Shown here: piece by piece, positions 5,866 to 55,058 of the stretch
Numbering within the stretch: position 1 is the first letter of the stretch
How the letters are laid out: each line of letters opens with the position of its first letter
From: a virus
DNA length: 64,000 nucleotides
Virus record (IMG/VR): IMGVR_UViG_3300046501_000558
Span: 1 to 64,000 of that record
Strand: one strand, 5' to 3'
The notes under the pieces: generated by a model
Seen by the model: the letters and a program-made list of their open reading frames with translations, nothing else
Database searches by the model: none
Told to the model about the DNA's origin: nothing
Made by a program: the position numbers and the translations under genes

Positions 5866-7845
5866 CTAGCTTAAAAGATCAGAAAACTCATCAGCTTCTG
5901 CAAGTACGGCCTCAGCCTCAATTTGATCTGAAGATCTACCCGCACCTTGATGATTGATATCCTTAGTAAAGCTATCCTCAGCAACCATATAAGCGGAGGC
6001 GGTTAAAAACATAAATGCAAAGGTATCTACCAAATCAGGTGACTTGATCCCGCGTCGTTTCATTTCCTCTTTAGATAGGATCTTATAGCGTGCTTGATCA
6101 TCGAAGGTGTAAGGAATACGTGTTAATTGCTCTTCTATTTTCGACTTAAACAGTAGTGTGCGGATCTTGAACCGGTTCTCGGCAATTGCACGGCCTAAAG
6201 CAACGAAAGCTTGAGCACGCTGATTAACATACATCTTCTTGTCAGTCGTTTGGAAGCACTGACCGCCCCAATGAATACGGCGATATGTAATACCAATTGA
6301 AGTTAGGTATTGAGCTAAACCCGCACCGGTACCATTGGCATCGAGTAGGATTGAAATATTGGGATATTGGATAAGGCAGTTGTTAATGATGCCGGCCAAT
6401 TCCTGAATATTATCGTTATTCTTACAGAGCGGAACGTCAATAATCTCAATACGCCGTGCCCGTTCGCCAAACTTGGCATTACCCCACACACGACCAATAA
6501 CAATAGCTGAATCGTCACGGCCAACACCGCCGCCGACATCGACCGCCATAAAGTAGCCATATTCTTTAAACTTCTTATCTTTAAGACTTCTACCTTGCCA
6601 TGCCTTTCGAGCATTCTTGTATGTAATTAAGAATTCGCCAGCAAGGTCGGGAAATAGTCCACGTATACGAATTAAATATGATGGATCGTCACGACTACCG
6701 TACTGTAATAATGCCTCTTTAATCTTCCTGATACTGACGATCGGAGAATCTTCACTATTGAAGATAAGTGAATTCCAAATACCTCCCGCAGCCATTGAAA
6801 GTTTATGGTGCGTATCATAGAAGAAACCCGTCGGTTTGGCTGGCTGTGAAGTCAGTGCCATACGGTTATCTTCTTCAGTTAATGCGTTTGTTAAAACGTC
6901 AAAAACTGGATCTTCAATACCCGCAGCCTCATCACCCCAAATAAATAGGTACTTAGCATGTAGACCTGCCAAGTTTGTAGGTTTATTTGGTGGCGCAGTC
7001 TTAGCAAAGATATGCCAAGTCTTTTGAAAGCCTTTGATGTATACGCTTTCTGCAAGCACCTCGATGTAGTCAACCATCCACGCCAAACGGCGTGTTTTCA
7101 TCAGGTCTTTACATATCTCAATCTCTTTCCAGACAAGCTTTCGGAGTTGATCAATCTGCGGAGCCGTGAACAACATGATTGAGAAAGGGAAAAAGAGTAA
7201 GTGCCAAAGCGCACAAACGCCCGCTGAGCGGGTTTTACCTGTGTTGTGTAGTACTACATCATCTTCACCCAAAAACATGTGATTATGAAGCAGCTCGAAG
7301 CCGTAGTAGTCACCTTTCCCGATCGATTTAATAGACTGGATTTCTACACGTTCAAAACCCTTTTTGGTCCACTTATAAAAACTAAAACGGCGTTGTTTTG
7401 GTCGCTTAAATTCTAAGAATTTCTTTAATGTAATTGTGAGCCTATGGCCCGCCTCATCAAGCAAGCAAAGTATGTGAGATTCATTGAAAATACCGCATTT
7501 GCCATTTTTGTAGCGGACCTTATAAAGTCTCTCTTTTCCACGTAGAACATGCGTAACAGTGCGAGAACTTTGATTGTCCTCGCCCATTACTAAATCATCT
7601 TCTTCAATATCCTGAACGGGCTTAAAGCTCCCATTGAACATTTTGATCGGTGTATCTATACCAAAACATCCATGTCCTGATGACACACTCGTTCTACTAC
7701 CAGGAACAGCAATAGATGTATAAAGCTCGTATTGCTGCCAAGTAATTTCCATGCCCAAAGCTTCGATTGCAAAGCGTGGCAAGTCGTAGCGATACCGCTT
7801 ACACGCAGCATGCCACTCAGGTAAATCAACAAGACTTTTAAGCAT
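5866..7845 (-). CDS. Terminase large subunit (TerL) carrying an in-frame intein
   Basis: TerL pumps DNA into the prohead and cuts the concatemer. Once residues 60-201 are removed the protein is 517 aa, normal for TerL. The Walker A loop is rebuilt across the splice point as SSGHG+TGKTRS. Walker B is at 299-306 (YLFIWGDE), and the RNase H-like nuclease acidic residues are around D436 (MAVDVGGG), in ILLDANGTG and in DLVDTFAF near the C-terminus. An AAGGTAG ribosome site precedes ATG 7845. Two genes of unknown role lie directly upstream. Stop TAG overlaps a possible GTG of the fibre gene. Without protein splicing the ATPase loop would be broken, so packaging depends on it. Confidence 0.9.
   Translation of the reverse strand: MLKSLVDLPEWHAACKRYRYDLPRFAIEALGMEITWQQYELYTSIAVPGSRTSVSSGHGCFGIDTPIKMFNGSFKPVQDIEEDDLVMGEDNQSSRTVTHVLRGKERLYKVRYKNGKCGIFNESHILCLLDEAGHRLTITLKKFLEFKRPKQRRFSFYKWTKKGFERVEIQSIKSIGKGDYYGFELLHNHMFLGEDDVVLHNTGKTRSAGVCALWHLLFFPFSIMLFTAPQIDQLRKLVWKEIEICKDLMKTRRLAWMVDYIEVLAESVYIKGFQKTWHIFAKTAPPNKPTNLAGLHAKYLFIWGDEAAGIEDPVFDVLTNALTEEDNRMALTSQPAKPTGFFYDTHHKLSMAAGGIWNSLIFNSEDSPIVSIRKIKEALLQYGSRDDPSYLIRIRGLFPDLAGEFLITYKNARKAWQGRSLKDKKFKEYGYFMAVDVGGGVGRDDSAIVIGRVWGNAKFGERARRIEIIDVPLCKNNDNIQELAGIINNCLIQYPNISILLDANGTGAGLAQYLTSIGITYRRIHWGGQCFQTTDKKMYVNQRAQAFVALGRAIAENRFKIRTLLFKSKIEEQLTRIPYTFDDQARYKILSKEEMKRRGIKSPDLVDTFAFMFLTASAYMVAEDSFTKDINHQGAGRSSDQIEAEAVLAEADEFSDLLS
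7243..7668 (-). other. Mini-intein (142 aa) inserted in the TerL Walker A loop
   Basis: TerL residues 60-201. It starts with Cys60 in block A (CFGIDTPIKMFNG), has the block B His in NESH (His124), and ends with block F/G YYGFELLHNHMFLG...VVLHN. The terminal His-Asn (200-201) is followed by Thr202 as the +1 nucleophile. All the residues needed for class 1 splicing are visible. At 142 residues there is no room for a homing endonuclease, so it is a mini-intein. The insertion point lies inside a P-loop, a common intein site. Confidence 0.9.
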
Positions 7846-27795: not shown

Positions 27796-29457
27796 TCATG
27801 CTACAGCTCTCATTTGTGAATCTGATTTATCAAAAGGATTATTTGCACGTGCGATCGACATCATTGGGTACGGCGAAACACTATTACCGACCATATTGAC
27901 TTGATCCTTTTTAGAAAATGGCTTCCCATCATGGCCGTGCTCGATGATGTAAGAATCAGGAAAGCCTTGAGCCTTATACAGCTCTCGCGGGTGAAGCATT
28001 CGCATTCGAATATCGACTATTAGCCATGGCTCCCCTTTTATCCAAACCGTTACTAACGCTAAGCGGTCTTTTGTAGTAACTGTATCCATTGGTTGCGTAA
28101 GGTCCCGTGCATCCCCATTACCGTAAAAATTGATAAGAAAAGATGCGACACGCAAAGCGCCGTCTAAATTTTCTTTACTTAACGTTGCAGAGACTAGCTG
28201 CTGCTGACTCCCTGAATTTGTTATTGTTGTTAAAGGTTCATTTAAAGTGCGCCCATCTATTTCATTAAAACCACCGTTAGCCTGCATCATGTATGCCGCT
28301 ACTACAGCATGATGCCCCCCTTTAACTTGAGCGCATATAGTCGAAAGAGGGTCTTCAACTGACCAATTTCTTTGCTGTGAAGCGTTAGCAAACTCGGTTA
28401 GATACGGAGCCAAAATTGGACTAACCAAAGCACTATGCCCGCCGTATGCGGATGTCGTTGTAGCTAATGGATCCTTAATACTGTGACCTACACCAGTTCT
28501 AAAGTCTCTACTGATAAACGGCGCTGCTGTATTAACAAAAAAAGGATCTTTTGCATCAATCACAAACTTCTGCAAGCCGCGTGCAATGCGTTTCATAGTG
28601 GCATCAGCTAAATGCTTTGGCCTACCGAATATTGATTTTCCGAGATCTGAAAAATCTATACATTCCGCTGCCGCTTTCCATTTCGTTTGACCACGTTTCG
28701 GATCCTTATGTAAAAGTGGATCTTCCCAATTAATAGGCTGGCCGTCACAGCGTGCAACCAAGAAAAGGCGGTCCCGAGTTGTTGGCGCACCAAAGTCCGA
28801 AGCTTTTAATCGTTTCCAATCGACCACGTAGCCAAGTTTTTCAAGACTTTTGACAAAATGACGCCATGTTTTGCCTTTTAATTTTGGATTAGGTACTAAA
28901 AATTGATTATGTCGCGGTACTCGCTCTCCTGGTTCTGCAACCCGATTAATGAGTTTGTTATTCACTTTTATTTTTTCGAGTGTGACAACGCGACCTGTAT
29001 CTTTATCTCTTTTTGCTATTAAAGGCCCCCAATTAAGGATCTGTCTTACATTTTCCATGCTAATCAGATCTGGCTTAACCTTACCCGCAAACTTAATGAC
29101 TACCCAACTAAGATCCCTTATTTCTTTCTTACGTGGTTGCCCACCTGCAGCTTGAGAGTGATGAGTGCAATCAGGACTTGCATGGAACCAGCCAACGGGG
29201 TAGCCGTCACATATTGCAATGGGATCTACTGCAAAAACATCTTGTACGTAATGCTTTGTGTGTGGATGGTTCGCCGCATGCATCGAAATGGCTTTGGGAT
29301 TATGGTTTACCGCTGCATATACTGTACGGTTTAAGCCCATTTCAAGGCCTGTGCTTGCTCCACCACCACCAGCAAAGTAGTCGATGATAATCTTTTCACC
29401 AAAATTTAAAGCAAACTGAGTTTTAAAGGTTTTCGAGCAATCTACAAAACTGGTCAT
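27796..29457 (-). CDS. C5 cytosine DNA methyltransferase
   Basis: 553 residues. Motif I DYFAGGGGASTGLEMGL binds S-adenosylmethionine. Motif IV is SPDCTHHSQA, with the catalytic Cys in DC rather than the usual PC. Motif VI is SMENVRQI (ENV), motif VIII is TTRDRLFLVARC, and motif X is NMVGNSVSPYPM near the C-terminus. The region between VIII and X (~230-400) is the target-recognition domain and is long. No restriction enzyme lies beside it, so it is probably an orphan that protects the element from host restriction or marks DNA epigenetically. The ATG overlaps the upstream gene's stop by 4 bp. Confidence 0.9.
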   Translation of the reverse strand: MTSFVDCSKTFKTQFALNFGEKIIIDYFAGGGGASTGLEMGLNRTVYAAVNHNPKAISMHAANHPHTKHYVQDVFAVDPIAICDGYPVGWFHASPDCTHHSQAAGGQPRKKEIRDLSWVVIKFAGKVKPDLISMENVRQILNWGPLIAKRDKDTGRVVTLEKIKVNNKLINRVAEPGERVPRHNQFLVPNPKLKGKTWRHFVKSLEKLGYVVDWKRLKASDFGAPTTRDRLFLVARCDGQPINWEDPLLHKDPKRGQTKWKAAAECIDFSDLGKSIFGRPKHLADATMKRIARGLQKFVIDAKDPFFVNTAAPFISRDFRTGVGHSIKDPLATTTSAYGGHSALVSPILAPYLTEFANASQQRNWSVEDPLSTICAQVKGGHHAVVAAYMMQANGGFNEIDGRTLNEPLTTITNSGSQQQLVSATLSKENLDGALRVASFLINFYGNGDARDLTQPMDTVTTKDRLALVTVWIKGEPWLIVDIRMRMLHPRELYKAQGFPDSYIIEHGHDGKPFSKKDQVNMVGNSVSPYPMMSIARANNPFDKSDSQMRAVA

Positions 29458-29843: not shown

Positions 29844-31196
29844 TTAATCCATCACTTCATTTAAGTAACTTACAATTTGCTCACCAATCCATTTCATAAC
29901 TGGTACAGCCATGGAGTTACCTAACGCCGCATATCTTCGAGTGTCTGGACAATCACACTCTTTCTTTCCGCGGTAAGGTATCTGTGTGTAATTATCAGGG
30001 AAACCCTGAAGCCGCTCGCATTCGAGCGGAGTTAAACGCCGTACAACACCTTCATGAATAAAATTCTGACAGTGCGTACCTTGTGAAGCAGTTAAAGCAC
30101 CAGCAATATTTCCATCGCCTCCGACTGGTCTAACTTCATCACGGCTATTCTGTTGATAGCTCACCCCATGAACGTCAGTTCTTGTTAAACAAGCTGTTCT
30201 CTCCAAAGTTGGCGTAACAGAGTTACCGCCATTTTCAGCTTTACGGCCAATCCAATTACCAGGAAAACCAAAAACATTAGAAATTGGTTTTGTGCCTGTT
30301 GAAGCCCTTAATGTTGGTGCTCTTTCAAGCGCCACATCATCTGCAGCATTACTATTACTGCAAAAAATAAGATCTTCATTAAACAAAATCTTTCCGTCTT
30401 CAACGGATTGATTGCCTAAACCTTTCTCATCGGACTTACATAAAGTACCAATAGGATCTTTATGGCTTATCCAGCTATTTGTGCTTGAATTTTTAGCGCT
30501 TGCTCGAATGGCTCGGGCAATCTCTTTCCGCGTTTTGCGGACCGGCGCAGAATCCCGTCGCACGCCGTTGAACTCAAATAATATTTTCTCGGCACGGAAC
30601 TCTTCTCTAGCACTTCCGACAACAAAGAGACGCCGCCTACGTTGGGGAACTCCGAAATATTGGGCATCGAGGATCCGCCAAGATGCTGACCTTTGGGGTC
30701 CAAACAAAAAACCTGCGTTTTTCCACTTCTTCCCTGCTGGTTGAAGCTCAATATCTTCTCCGGCAAGTGCTCCCAGAAAGCACCCGTATGCATTGTCTTT
30801 TGTAGACAAGACTCCGGGGACGTTTTCCCACACAACAATAACGGGTTCTTTTCCATTCTTAATTCTCACTTCATCAATTGCATTAGCGATATCAATAAAC
30901 ACAAGTGACAGCTGTCCTCTTGAGTCATTTAACGAGTTTCTAAGTCCCGCAACACTAAAAGCTTGGCACGGCGTGCCACCTATTAAAATGTCAGGAGCTT
31001 CGATTTCCTCATTCCTAATTTTCTCCGCAATACTTGTCATATCACCGAGATTAGGCACATTAGGGTAGTGATGATCTAAAACAGCACTTGGAAATTGTTC
31101 AATTTCCGCAAACCATATCGGATCCCACCCAAGGCTATGCCACGCAACCGTCGGAGCTTCAATTCCCGAACAGACAGAGCCATACGTCAAAACCAT
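29844..31196 (-). CDS. Second C5 cytosine DNA methyltransferase
   Basis: 450 residues. Motif I is SVCSGIEAPTVAWHSLGW, motif IV is GGTPCQAFSVAG (classic PCQ), motif VI is WENVPGV, motif VIII is VPQRRRRLFVVG, and motif X is GNSMAVPVMKWIGEQI. It is not closely similar to the 27796-29457 enzyme outside these motifs and has a different motif IV context, so the two probably recognise different sites. Again no restriction endonuclease is nearby. It may help the element evade several host restriction systems. Confidence 0.92.
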   Translation of the reverse strand: MVLTYGSVCSGIEAPTVAWHSLGWDPIWFAEIEQFPSAVLDHHYPNVPNLGDMTSIAEKIRNEEIEAPDILIGGTPCQAFSVAGLRNSLNDSRGQLSLVFIDIANAIDEVRIKNGKEPVIVVWENVPGVLSTKDNAYGCFLGALAGEDIELQPAGKKWKNAGFLFGPQRSASWRILDAQYFGVPQRRRRLFVVGSAREEFRAEKILFEFNGVRRDSAPVRKTRKEIARAIRASAKNSSTNSWISHKDPIGTLCKSDEKGLGNQSVEDGKILFNEDLIFCSNSNAADDVALERAPTLRASTGTKPISNVFGFPGNWIGRKAENGGNSVTPTLERTACLTRTDVHGVSYQQNSRDEVRPVGGDGNIAGALTASQGTHCQNFIHEGVVRRLTPLECERLQGFPDNYTQIPYRGKKECDCPDTRRYAALGNSMAVPVMKWIGEQIVSYLNEVMD

Positions 31197-31416: not shown

Positions 31417-32673
31417 TTAAATTTCTAACTCATTAACACTACTTTCAATGTCATCCTCTGTACCATCTCGCTCCTTCTCATTTTTCTGAAGGTTTAAAAG
31501 GCCATTGTTTAATTGACAGTGAACATAATAATCAAAGTCGATTAGCTTGATGTCATTTAACAGGCTTGGCTTACTTCTCAAAAGGGTGGCAAGAATCTCT
31601 TTTGCAAGTTTTCGATTACTTACTTCATCATCTGTTGTTGAACCTGCATAAAACTCACTGTAATCATTCAAGAATTGTGGGCATGACACCAAGAACCCGA
31701 TTTGCTTAGGTGTAAAGGAATCAATACGGTTAATATACTTCTCACGATCAGGTGATTTAAAGTGAGAGCCATCGTCGTTGTAAGGTATACCCGCTTTTAA
31801 CAGCTTAGTTTTGAATTCATGTAACTTATCTTCAATCTTCTTAATACGATCTGAAGCTTTGTATTCGTAATTAAATCTCAGACCAACAATACTGAGGCCA
31901 CTTTTAATATTCTCGACCTTTAGAATTGTAATATTAGATAAGTCATTAATTTCTTTTATTGAAGGCTTAATAATACGGCGCTTTAAATTATCGATGTCAT
32001 TGTAAGAAGGCTTATCTTCTAAATCTAATGCAAATTTTAGATCATCTAAGGAAATTTCAAGAATATTTGATTTCCATTTATTTTCAATTAGCATTCGATA
32101 GATTCTCATTGAATAAAAGCCATCAAGTTGTGTCACTTGCTTTAATTCATGTGAAAAATATCCATCAAGCTTTTTATCATCTGCTTGATCAACTAATACC
32201 CGATAAAAGTATTCATAAAATTCTGGCGCAAAACGAATATCGATACTTTTACTTTTGGCAATATATTTGCAATAAGTAATCATCGGTACTTTTGCTGGCA
32301 CAGGTGAATCTGGTTCTTTGACTTTCATTATTAGTGGCTGGAATTTGTTATAAATTCGAAGCAATGCTTTGTCTGCAGTCTTTTCTATAAGCTTTAATTC
32401 AGCTTCTTCTAAAGCAGTTGCTTCGCCACTAATGACTTTTTTATGTGTAAGTTCAGCGTAATTACGCGCAGAGATACGAATCTTTGAATTAGGATCAATA
32501 GGGCCTTTATTTTCAAGCTCTAACTTCCGTATAACAATCATAGCCGCAAACATTAGCTTTTCTTGGTTTGGATCGTTACTATAGCTTGCGTAAGCCATGG
32601 TGTTGCGAGTTACTACAAGAGAGTCTTTCTTTACTCGTTTAGCTATTATTAGCTCATCTTTTTGTTCGCTCAT
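31417..32673 (-). CDS. Rep_3-superfamily plasmid replication initiator
   Basis: 418 residues with the two winged-helix domains of RepB/RepA initiators. WH1 has TRNTMAYASY, the RNYAELTHKK region and the helix of FYSMRIYRMLIE. The second domain has NLKRRIIKPSIKEINDLSN followed by NITILKVENIKSG, the family's signature. A charged C-terminal extension follows. The upstream region carries the iterons it should bind and a DnaA box. It initiates plasmid-mode replication and probably autoregulates. It is transcribed away from the origin. Confidence 0.9.
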   Translation of the reverse strand: MSEQKDELIIAKRVKKDSLVVTRNTMAYASYSNDPNQEKLMFAAMIVIRKLELENKGPIDPNSKIRISARNYAELTHKKVISGEATALEEAELKLIEKTADKALLRIYNKFQPLIMKVKEPDSPVPAKVPMITYCKYIAKSKSIDIRFAPEFYEYFYRVLVDQADDKKLDGYFSHELKQVTQLDGFYSMRIYRMLIENKWKSNILEISLDDLKFALDLEDKPSYNDIDNLKRRIIKPSIKEINDLSNITILKVENIKSGLSIVGLRFNYEYKASDRIKKIEDKLHEFKTKLLKAGIPYNDDGSHFKSPDREKYINRIDSFTPKQIGFLVSCPQFLNDYSEFYAGSTTDDEVSNRKLAKEILATLLRSKPSLLNDIKLIDFDYYVHCQLNNGLLNLQKNEKERDGTEDDIESSVNELEI

Positions 32674-34906: not shown

Positions 34907-35725
34907 TTAAATCCCATAAAACAAATCTTGTTGACGTTCGGCCTGAGGATTTATCCAAAGAATTTCCTCACGACCAACTGAACCTGCTTGACTAGTAGCA
35001 GCAACATTTTTTACAGCCTTTTGCCAGCCTAACCGGTTATATAGATCATTTTCATAACCACACAAAATGACCTGTCCTTTAACATTTTTAAGAACATCTA
35101 TTAATTGCTCATGCTCTGCAAAAGACATCTCATGTTTATAGGCAGTACCTGCAGTGTTGCGAACATCTAATAAATAAGGCGGATCAATAAAGAATAAAGT
35201 GTCTAGTCGGTCATGATCTTGAATGACCTGAAGGGCATCACGATTTTCAATCATGACCTTACTTAAACGTTTAGCTGCCTCAAGAATTAAGTTTGGTTGC
35301 CGTTGCCAGATAGTTACTAAGTCTGTACAACCTCGACCAGTATCCAGCCTAAACCCCGTATTACCATTTGAAGCCCCAACGCTACTGAAACCCATTTGTG
35401 CCCTAATAACTAAACGTCTTGCGCGTTCTACAGAATCTTCAGCCACTTCACGAGAAAGGTTAAATTCAGTTCTAGAATAAGGTGTAAGTTGAATTTGACT
35501 AGCCAACGTCTTAGAAAGATTAGGATCACGAAGCACTTCAAAAAAATTAACTACTTCGTTATCTAGATCGTTATAAACCTCGCAGCGACTTGGCGTTTTA
35601 TTCAAGAGAACAGAAGCACCGCCACCAAATGGCTCAACGTAAGTGTCATGCAATGGAAAATAAGAAAGTATCCAATTAGATAATCTATATTTACCGCCAT
35701 GGTAGCGAATTAGAGGATGATTCAT
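34907..35725 (-). CDS. dam: DNA adenine methyltransferase (Dam-like, GATC type)
   Basis: 272 residues, class D12. The N-terminal YHGGKYRLSNWIL precedes motif I YVEPFGGGASVLLNKT (S-adenosylmethionine pocket) and NDLDNEVVNFF. Catalytic motif IV FIDPPYLL lies near residue 180, followed by CGYENDLYN. That order is Dam-like and most such enzymes methylate GATC; the exact site is inferred. GATC is the core of the octad arrays on this same element, including array C next door. Confidence 0.88.
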   Translation of the reverse strand: MNHPLIRYHGGKYRLSNWILSYFPLHDTYVEPFGGGASVLLNKTPSRCEVYNDLDNEVVNFFEVLRDPNLSKTLASQIQLTPYSRTEFNLSREVAEDSVERARRLVIRAQMGFSSVGASNGNTGFRLDTGRGCTDLVTIWQRQPNLILEAAKRLSKVMIENRDALQVIQDHDRLDTLFFIDPPYLLDVRNTAGTAYKHEMSFAEHEQLIDVLKNVKGQVILCGYENDLYNRLGWQKAVKNVAATSQAGSVGREEILWINPQAERQQDLFYGI

Positions 35726-42346: not shown

Positions 42347-43555
42347 CTAATTAATTACAGAACAAAACTTATTATCTAAGTAATCTGCCCACCATTGCAT
42401 CATTTTGGAACGGTGCTCAACATACTCAGCATGGTTGTATGTGCCGCGTACTTTGTTTTCGTCGGCATGTGAAAGTTGTGCTTCGATCCATTCGCGTTTA
42501 AATAATCCTGAATCATTTAGTACTGTGCTCATGGTTGCTCGTAATCCATGGGGAGATAATTCATCGTTTGTATATCCCATTCGACGTATAAGTTGACAGA
42601 AAACATTGACGCCCATTTGCTTATTTGCTTTGTAAGGGCTATTGAAAAGGTACTTTTCGCCAGCGCTCCAAGCCTCAGCTTCCTTAATAATTTCTATAAC
42701 TTGGTCTGAAAGCGGGATTAGATATTCTGGAACATTTGGATCTATAAGAGCCAGTTTTCTAAGCTGCTTTACATTCTCAGGTGGGATTCGCCAAACCTTT
42801 TTATCTAAATCAAACTGAGTTATTTGTGCTTGTCGGACTTCGGCACTTCGAACACCGGTATATGCTAAAAGTCTCAAAGCACGTTTAGTAATTGGAAATG
42901 CTTCAGCTTGTTCAAGTCGCGGACCAAAATCACTAAGCTCTGAATCTCTTAAATGCGGGTAATTACGTTTTACTGTATTGATTGCTATAAGTGATCTTAA
43001 ATTGTCTGCAAGGTTGTATTCACAGTATTCATGCAGAACGGCGAATTTATAAATATCTTTAAGATAAGTACATGTCTTTTCGACCGTATTTTTTGCTTCT
43101 CGTACTTCAATTGATCTAATTAGTTGGATTAAATCTAATTTGGTCACTTCACTAAAAGTTTTTTCTCCTAAGGCTGGCAATATGTCAAAATCAAGTGAAT
43201 TCCTAGAAGTCTTTATCATTCCAGCCCGAGGAATTTCACCAAGGTATTTTTTTTGTCGGAATGCATGCCAGCTTTCTGCCACATCTCCAAAAGTTAGAAT
43301 CTTTGGTTTAATAATAGGTTCAACGCTTTTGTTTTTTTGAAAATTGTCTCTTAATGTGCGGGCTTCTTTTAGGCTAATCTCTGGGTACATGCCAATTTTA
43401 ACAAGTGGTCGTTTTCCCGATGAATCTGTATATCTAACTTTCCATGTTTTTTTCCCAGAGATGTTAATGTATAGATATAAGCCATCACCGTCATTCACAC
43501 AGAAAACTTCTGTTGACGGTTTGAGCTGGCGTATCTTAGTTTCGGTAAGAGCCAT
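42347..43555 (-). CDS. int: Tyrosine recombinase (phage integrase)
   Basis: 402 residues of the P4-type. An arm-binding N-terminal domain (KIRQLKPSTE, DGDGLYLYINISGKKTWKVR) is followed by a core-binding region and a catalytic domain containing YTGVRSAEVRQAQ (Arg I), SPHGLRATMSTVL (HxLR) and LSHADENKVRGTYNHAEY (His and nucleophile Tyr). It integrates or excises the element or resolves multimers. Its neighbours are plasmid genes and array G. The host attachment site is not visible. Confidence 0.92.
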   Translation of the reverse strand: MALTETKIRQLKPSTEVFCVNDGDGLYLYINISGKKTWKVRYTDSSGKRPLVKIGMYPEISLKEARTLRDNFQKNKSVEPIIKPKILTFGDVAESWHAFRQKKYLGEIPRAGMIKTSRNSLDFDILPALGEKTFSEVTKLDLIQLIRSIEVREAKNTVEKTCTYLKDIYKFAVLHEYCEYNLADNLRSLIAINTVKRNYPHLRDSELSDFGPRLEQAEAFPITKRALRLLAYTGVRSAEVRQAQITQFDLDKKVWRIPPENVKQLRKLALIDPNVPEYLIPLSDQVIEIIKEAEAWSAGEKYLFNSPYKANKQMGVNVFCQLIRRMGYTNDELSPHGLRATMSTVLNDSGLFKREWIEAQLSHADENKVRGTYNHAEYVEHRSKMMQWWADYLDNKFCSVIN

Positions 43556-53231: not shown

Positions 53232-55058
53232 ATGACTACTGACGAAAAATCAAAAAGGGATTTATTTTTAGAATGTGATTGGACTTATGATCTTGAAAAA
53301 TATAAAAACTATAACTACACATCACTTTGTTTGAGCCTTCATCAAGCTGCAACTGGTATGCAGGAATCGGGAAAGGTTAAACATTATGAAGTTCTTTTAT
53401 TTCTTTCATATATTGCATCTCTATCTTTTGTTCCTGAAAGACAACATGAGCCATATAAGCATGCTTCAGAGAGTCTAAGGGAACAATTAGCGGCTTTTAG
53501 GCCAGACCATATGATAGATGAAGATTTTATATTTTTAGAGTCAATTTTAGATGATGTTAAACATCCCCTGCTAAAGGCAAGATTAGCGGATTTGCTATGG
53601 GTTTATAATAAACCTAAAAATCATCTTCATGCCCGTAAAGCAATTGATGCTTATATAGAATTACCCATAGATCACCATTGGAATGATGGTATTGATATAG
53701 GTTGGGACCGAGCGATAACGTTAAGTTTGCAATTAAGAGATAATTCTCGTTTAGATAGGATTAAAGCAGAAATGTTTGATGCTCTTAAAAGAGAAATATC
53801 AAATCCTGAAAATCATTTTTTAAGCCTTACAATTGGGAGAATGCTTAATAGAACTGGGATAGATCAAGATTATAGAGAGCTGCTTGCAGAATTATTTTTT
53901 ACTCATGGGGAATGTTTGAAAGGCAAACATAGTTATGGGTTAGCGAGACAATTCTATGATTTGGCAGTTAAGAAATATTATCAGGTTAAAGATGAAGAGA
54001 GCTGGGCTAATTCACTATTAGCCATTGCAGAATGTTTTGAATTGGAAGCTGAAGCTTATCCAACCCCAATGCAAGCTCATGAATCATATGAAAGAGCATT
54101 ACTTGCTTATAGAGCAATTCCTAACGAGAATCGAAAAAAATTAGGGATAGAAGATAAAATAGACGATATTCAGAGAAAAATAGCCCAAGCTGGTAAAGAC
54201 TCCTTAGCTTATATGGTTCGAATTCCATATCCAAAGGCTGATTTCTCAGATATTGAGTTAGAGGCCAAAAACTATGTTAGTGAAAAGAGTGCGCCAATTA
54301 ATGCTTTATTTTCTTTTGTAAAATTATACCAAGGTCCTAATTGTGAAGAGATTGAAAATATTGCAAAACAATCGTTACAACAATCATTTTTTTCAGGTTT
54401 ATCACCAATAAAACTTTTAGATCGAGGGGGGCGTGTTTTAGCTAGAACTCCTGCAGCTCACAAATTTGGACCATTGGACGGTTCAATTAATGAAGAAGCA
54501 TTAGAAGATAAAATATACGAATTATTTAAATTAGAAGTTTCAAGAATTGTTCAGCATTTGATTATGCCTGCTTTAGAGCAACTAACTCATGAATATAGAA
54601 TTAGCAAAGATCTATTAAGGGCTATTTGTGAAGCATCACCGATTATTCCACGTGACCGGATCATGTTAATGGTTGATGCACTTTGGTATGGGTTTGAATA
54701 CGAATTTGCTGCTTCAATACACTTACTTTGCCCACAAATTGAAAATATAGTCAGAAATGAGTTAGATAAAAGAGGTGCAATAACCCTAACACGTGGTGAG
54801 GATGGCGCAACAAATGAAAATGGATTAAGTACATTAATGAAAGACCCCAAAATTGTAGATATTTTGGGTAAAAATCTTTCTTTTGAAATTGAATTTATTT
54901 TTTGTAAAGTACATGGTTTTAACTTAAGAAATAATGTTGCTCATGGTTTATTGGATGATGCTGAGGCTACAAGTTCAGTTGGATGCATATACGCTTGGTG
55001 GATGACGTTAAGAATAATTTTAAAGAACTGGCATTATAAACAAATTAACTTTGGTTGA
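53232..55058 (+). CDS. DUF4209-domain protein with HEPN-type RxxxxH motif
   Basis: 608 residues. The N-terminal ~330 are helical and TPR-like with a spread of helices (ARQFYDLAVKKYYQV, SLLAIAECFELEA). The C-terminal ~250 match DUF4209: FEYEFAASIHLLCPQIENI, then GAITLT, and NLRNNVAHGLL. The motif R566-x4-H571 (RNNVAH) is the HEPN RNase signature. HEPN proteins are often defence or toxin RNases. A host-derived or phage-defence role is an inference. Its promoter holds the operator cluster, so it may be silenced in the lysogen. Confidence 0.75.
   Translation: MTTDEKSKRDLFLECDWTYDLEKYKNYNYTSLCLSLHQAATGMQESGKVKHYEVLLFLSYIASLSFVPERQHEPYKHASESLREQLAAFRPDHMIDEDFIFLESILDDVKHPLLKARLADLLWVYNKPKNHLHARKAIDAYIELPIDHHWNDGIDIGWDRAITLSLQLRDNSRLDRIKAEMFDALKREISNPENHFLSLTIGRMLNRTGIDQDYRELLAELFFTHGECLKGKHSYGLARQFYDLAVKKYYQVKDEESWANSLLAIAECFELEAEAYPTPMQAHESYERALLAYRAIPNENRKKLGIEDKIDDIQRKIAQAGKDSLAYMVRIPYPKADFSDIELEAKNYVSEKSAPINALFSFVKLYQGPNCEEIENIAKQSLQQSFFSGLSPIKLLDRGGRVLARTPAAHKFGPLDGSINEEALEDKIYELFKLEVSRIVQHLIMPALEQLTHEYRISKDLLRAICEASPIIPRDRIMLMVDALWYGFEYEFAASIHLLCPQIENIVRNELDKRGAITLTRGEDGATNENGLSTLMKDPKIVDILGKNLSFEIEFIFCKVHGFNLRNNVAHGLLDDAEATSSVGCIYAWWMTLRIILKNWHYKQINFG

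Follow-up and report, generated by a model that had tools for sequence, protein, structure and literature searches.

Our analysis indicates that the terminase large subunit (TerL) of this element is interrupted by a resident class 1 mini-intein that splices constitutively, that the intein descends from a LAGLIDADG homing intein which has lost its endonuclease, and that its carrier is a P1-like temperate phage (phage-plasmid) of Acinetobacter. We put the probability of this reading, which is built on sequence comparison and predicted structure, at about 0.9. The source record comprises 81,477 bases, and the stretch analysed here (the window) corresponds to its bases 1-64000. The features of the terL locus are listed in Table 1.

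Table 1. Coordinates (window positions) of the intein-bearing terL gene and its parts
Feature	Position	Strand	Evidence
terL precursor (P1 PacB-like terminase large subunit), 659 aa	5866..7845	-	ORF, P1 PacB tblastn, PHROG, fold match
N-extein, TerL residues 1-59, ending ...RTSVSSGHG	7669..7845	-	alignment with intein-free TerLs
class 1 mini-intein, 142 aa	7243..7668	-	PF05203; AlphaFold and Foldseek Hint fold; invariant residues in 64/64 homologues
C-extein, TGKTRS... (+1 Thr), remaining ATPase and nuclease domain	5866..7242	-	alignment with intein-free TerLs, fold match

The interrupted protein belongs to the P1 PacB-like TerLs, with homology across both the ATPase and nuclease regions and a Walker A motif. 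P1 PacB aligned with residues 200-614 (tblastn, 33%, E 2e-55), PHROG family phrog_2 ('terminase large subunit') matched with an E value of 1.1e-35, and the predicted precursor structure matched the folds of Sf6 gp2, T4 gp17 and other TerL proteins. Pfam recognized the protein weakly (Terminase_6N, E 0.011) and an NCBIfam search returned no match to either TerL or the intein, so TerL was identified through PacB homology, PHROGs and fold. A second PHROG family, phrog_34449 ('unknown function'), already groups the intein-bearing N-termini of TerLs from this P1 PacB-like group.

The gene content of the window is that of a P1-kind temperate phage-plasmid, including a Rep3/RepM initiator, an S24 repressor, a tyrosine integrase, DNA methylases, a UmuC-like polymerase and tail genes. 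Acinetobacter plasmids (71-79 kb) and the Acinetobacter baumannii phage ABMM1 carry the nearest TerL relatives, which points to Acinetobacter as the probable host genus. Assignment to the AB_1 phage-plasmid type was dropped, as AB_1 is SSU5-related and not P1-like. The plasmid initiator and the integrase (window 31417-32673 and 42347-43555, respectively, both on the minus strand) occur together, so that the element may persist as a plasmid, in integrated form, or in both states. Two C5-cytosine methylase genes adjoin one another in the same orientation (27796-29457 and 29844-31196, minus strand), a D12 adenine methylase lies at 34907-35725, and a plus-strand gene at 53232-55058 encodes a 608-aa protein with DUF7380 and DUF4209 that strongly matches PHROG phrog_31613 (unknown function). 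Some related genomes carry an additional gene after terL: in Acinetobacter defluvii plasmid p1_010030 (locus L009, 5049-6752) and two Acinetobacter genomes (loci L049, L050, L055 and L056), an ORF of 568-576 aa appears to encode a permuted TerL paralogue, in which a nuclease-like half precedes an ATPase-like half, with neither P-loop nor intein. In four or more further genomes (L051-L054), terL is followed by shorter TerL-like ORFs. The permuted paralogue is absent from the window.

The insert spans TerL residues 60-201, starting with Cys60 and ending with His200-Asn201, and is followed by Thr202. Block B reads N-E-S-H, with its His at intein position 65, and block F reads YYGF. The Pfam Hint family Hom_end_hint (PF05203) matched residues 60-145 with an E value of 1.4e-9 and 38.7 bits, above the cut-off of 32.1. 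An AlphaFold model of the intein, built from 18 natural sequences (mean pLDDT 86, pTM 0.81), matched the mini-inteins of Cryptococcus Prp8 in a Foldseek search (E 5e-12, rmsd 1.6, TM 0.80/0.92), as well as dozens of other inteins. These results bear out the first-pass annotation, which had recognized, from the letters alone, a 142-residue intein with Cys1, a block B His, a penultimate His, a terminal Asn and a +1 Thr; together with the Hint fold and the existence of intein-free homologues, these residues place the insert in class 1. At 142 aa, with Hint the only domain matched and no homing endonuclease domain, it is a mini-intein, and a scan of the 81,477-base record found only this one Hint domain. 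Cys1, the terminal His-Asn, N-x-S-H and Y(Y/F)GF are invariant in all 64 distinct inteins at the TerL site, and conservation of this extent shows that the anatomy of the insert is not a product of chance.

The position of the insert is equally well defined. It starts and stops precisely where the sequence of intein-free relatives runs on as VSSGHG-TGKTRS, which supports the split of the Walker A loop described in the first-pass annotation, and 44 distinct intein-free TerLs, P1 PacB among them, read SGHG-TGK(T/S) without interruption. The model of the full precursor had a pTM of 0.48, too weak for domain placement, and was used solely as a check on the TerL fold and for the secondary structure around the insertion site. 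There, the insert lies between a beta strand (residues 51-56) and a helix (204-218), the usual beta1/P-loop/alpha1 arrangement of a P-loop ATPase, in agreement with the earlier suggestion that splicing is required to join the Walker A loop. We propose that the Gly59-Cys60 bond would be attacked by Cys1, that the N-extein would then be transferred to Thr202, and that cyclization of Asn201 would be followed by ligation of the exteins as SSGHG-TGKTRS. Removal of 142 of the 659 residues leaves a TerL of 517 aa, the length anticipated by the first-pass annotation, and the released intein would be of approximately 16 kDa.

The intein could instead have kept its Hint fold while being dead or capable of cleavage only, leaving TerL non-functional and the element a defective prophage or plasmid. 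Two substitutions might be read in this way, the usual block B Thr being Asn and the usual block F Asp being Gly, but both are common to all relatives at the TerL site, where the block B His is invariant. Furthermore, the TerL of A. baumannii phage vB_AbaM_ABMM1 (OQ471969) contains a homologous intein of 149 aa at the identical site, which is not annotated as an intein and is about 35% identical to that of the window; the catalytic positions of the two are the same and all are intact. Phage ABMM1 was isolated as a plaque-forming phage; in LB at 37 C its latent period was approximately 30 min and its burst approximately 284 PFU per cell (PMC10345192), and the word 'intein' is absent from the text of that paper. 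From what is known of TerL biology, a terminase with a split Walker A motif could not give such a burst, and the ABMM1 intein therefore almost certainly splices efficiently, without a special trigger. None of the 64 inteins at the TerL site is broken.

Selection on the inteins also argues against loss of function. By the Nei-Gojobori method, applied to pairs unsaturated at synonymous sites, intein dN/dS was 0.022-0.110 in nearly all usable pairs, compared with 0.013-0.064 for the exteins; the exception, the pair L044-L046 with an intein value of 0.80, has hardly any synonymous change. Pairs that include the window are themselves saturated, but third positions account for most of their differences (72 of 123 against the nearest relative). 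In the usable pair nearest to the window (L064-L065), the intein and extein dN/dS values were 0.029 and 0.036, respectively. The mini-inteins thus bear the signature of strong purifying selection, like the extein, a protein-level constraint that is expected if TerL needs the insert to splice. On this evidence, a dead intein is the least probable of the readings that we weighed, and the window intein is almost certainly functional and ordinary for its kind. The first-pass annotation had reckoned with its reading failing if relatives lacked the insert and the copy in the window were non-functional: relatives without the insert do exist, but the sequence of the window copy bears every sign of function.

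Six-frame reading of all fetched loci yielded 108 distinct TerL rows that included the insertion site, comprising 44 empty sites, 61 mini-inteins (139-151 aa), one intein of 241 aa and two full-length inteins (343 and 349 aa). Exact empty sites occur in P1 and in Pseudomonas, Burkholderia, Vibrio, Moraxella and some Acinetobacter genomes. The full-length inteins, in an Acinetobacter genome (L038) and a viral contig (L216), match LAGLIDADG_3 with E values of 4e-7 and 5e-7, and their endonuclease sits where the aligned mini-inteins show a gap. The 241-aa intein, from a Pseudomonas atacamensis plasmid (L012), gave no LAGLIDADG_3 match in Pfam, and by eye the region of its second LAGLIDADG motif reads GLVGETARYF rather than GLIDTDGSL; we therefore read it as an intein with a decayed endonuclease. 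As judged from these alleles, a single TerL codon position of P1-PacB-like phage-plasmids displays the intein homing cycle in all four of its states. Among 176 Acinetobacter genomes searched, 20 have a P1 PacB-like TerL, of which 15 carry the intein, four are empty and one is cut off.

In the extein tree, mini-inteins were clustered, yet several gains or losses are required (six changes for mini-intein and eight for empty states; none of 500 shuffles was as low). Mini-inteins are present in the window and in each of its five closest relatives, and the neighbours of the full-length and decayed alleles are empty. In the intein tree, the window's own clade of four was recovered with 100/100 support and the TerL inteins stood apart from phage-helicase inteins; the deep branches of this tree are weak, and the two trees together are compatible with endonuclease losses that were independent or shared among mini-intein clades. 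Third-position GC content (GC3) was 0.394 in the window intein and 0.397 in its extein, compared with 0.224 and 0.342, respectively, for the full-length intein of L038. The match in the window and the mismatch in L038 suggest that the window intein has been resident for a long time and that the L038 intein arrived recently; a recent invasion by the window intein was accordingly rejected.

These alleles bear on whether the mini-intein might still be mobile, relying in trans on the endonuclease of full-length copies or of a free-standing gene. Related phages do carry full-length LAGLIDADG inteins at the identical site, but when the whole 81-kb record was searched for an endonuclease that could act in trans or be encoded by a free-standing gene, LAGLIDADG_3 had no match; the composition of the window intein equals that of its extein, and mini-intein clades largely track extein clades. 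Continued mobility is, therefore, highly improbable. The resident mini-intein would instead derive from a LAGLIDADG homing intein that targeted the Walker A codons of the P1 PacB-like TerL family and has since lost its endonuclease. We suggest that it is retained because precise loss is rare, and because imprecise change would break an essential packaging ATPase.

The first-pass annotation had raised a further possibility, that splicing responds to redox, temperature or another aspect of cell state, such that TerL becomes active and DNA is packaged only when conditions are suitable. There is precedent in the P-loop mini-intein of Mycobacterium smegmatis DnaB, which is inhibited by oxidation (PMC6195587); the TerL mini-inteins have been kept without an endonuclease, and an internal Cys at intein position 68 is retained in 63 of the 64 inteins. 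However, extein positions -3 to -1 are GHG in all cases, with no Cys near the junctions to act as a redox trap, and Cys68 lies at H+3 of the block B strand, probably pointing away from the active site. A redox toggle was given low weight, and there was no sign of Cys68-Cys1 pairing. Many TerLs of the same family, including Acinetobacter ones, are intein-free, the need to splice alone predicts purifying selection, and a strict gate fits poorly with the efficient packaging of ABMM1 in plain LB at 37 C. The proposal that conditional splicing gates virion production thus gained no support here; an environmental gate is not needed to explain the allele pattern, and we consider it very unlikely. Its more specific form, in which the mini-intein is kept because cell-state-sensitive splicing, for example via Cys1 and the nearly invariant Cys68, postpones packaging of the phage-plasmid to conditions favourable for virion assembly, is likewise very unlikely.

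P-loop inteins in TerL are known, and finding one here is no surprise. The value of the find lies in its setting: within a single phage-plasmid family, empty, full-length, decayed and mini-intein alleles share one TerL codon position, and one mini-intein allele belongs to an A. baumannii phage that has been isolated and grows fast. With this allele set and a laboratory phage, it becomes directly testable whether mini-inteins are retained through drift or usefulness.

TerL Walker A inteins as such were published in 2016 for mycobacteriophages, in which TerL1-a and TerL1-b interrupt the P-loop of the terminase large subunit (Kelley et al. 2016, PMC5050341); that study demonstrated both splicing and cleavage of empty sites for TerL1-b, and had already raised environmental sensing. 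The window intein shares the insertion in the TerL P-loop, but TerL1-a separates the Lys of GKT from its Thr and TerL1-b is displaced by one residue (PMC5050341), whereas the window intein is inserted three residues closer to the N-terminus (G-T of GHG-TGKT), a position apparently new relative to published ones. It also differs from the mycobacteriophage inteins in its host protein, a TerL of the P1 PacB family, and in being an endonuclease-free mini-intein. Cyanophage Mic1 likewise has an intein in the TerL ATPase domain with a +1 Thr, but its P22-like TerL contains two inteins, one with an endonuclease, for which packaging control and a 'biosensor' role were speculated (PMC7156551).

Outside the terminases, the phage-helicase LAGLIDADG inteins of Salmonella, Klebsiella and Vibrio phages have related Hint and endonuclease domains and a P-loop location, but branch separately in the intein tree and are inserted at GK-T, not G-TGK, so that a common insertion position was rejected. 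The P-loop helicase of Vibrio phage 13VV501A (L059, 2393-4894) apparently carries two inteins, a mini-intein at GK-T and another in the DEC-H Walker B motif, and a related 139-aa mini-intein-like insert occurs in the tail tape measure protein, not an ATPase, of Ruegeria phage vB_RpoS-V18 (L061, 887-5417). The Cryptococcus Prp8 mini-inteins (PDB 6mwy and 6mx6) are the closest solved structures by sequence and fold, in a spliceosome factor rather than a P-loop ATPase. M. smegmatis DnaBi1 is also a mini-intein in an ATPase P-loop, with demonstrable inhibition of splicing by oxidation (PMC6195587), but it is of class 3, lacking Cys1 and using a block F Cys, and has a disulfide toggle, features that the window intein does not share. 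The ABMM1 intein, although divergent in sequence and carried by an isolated, plaque-forming phage, is alike in site, size class, conserved residues and TerL family.
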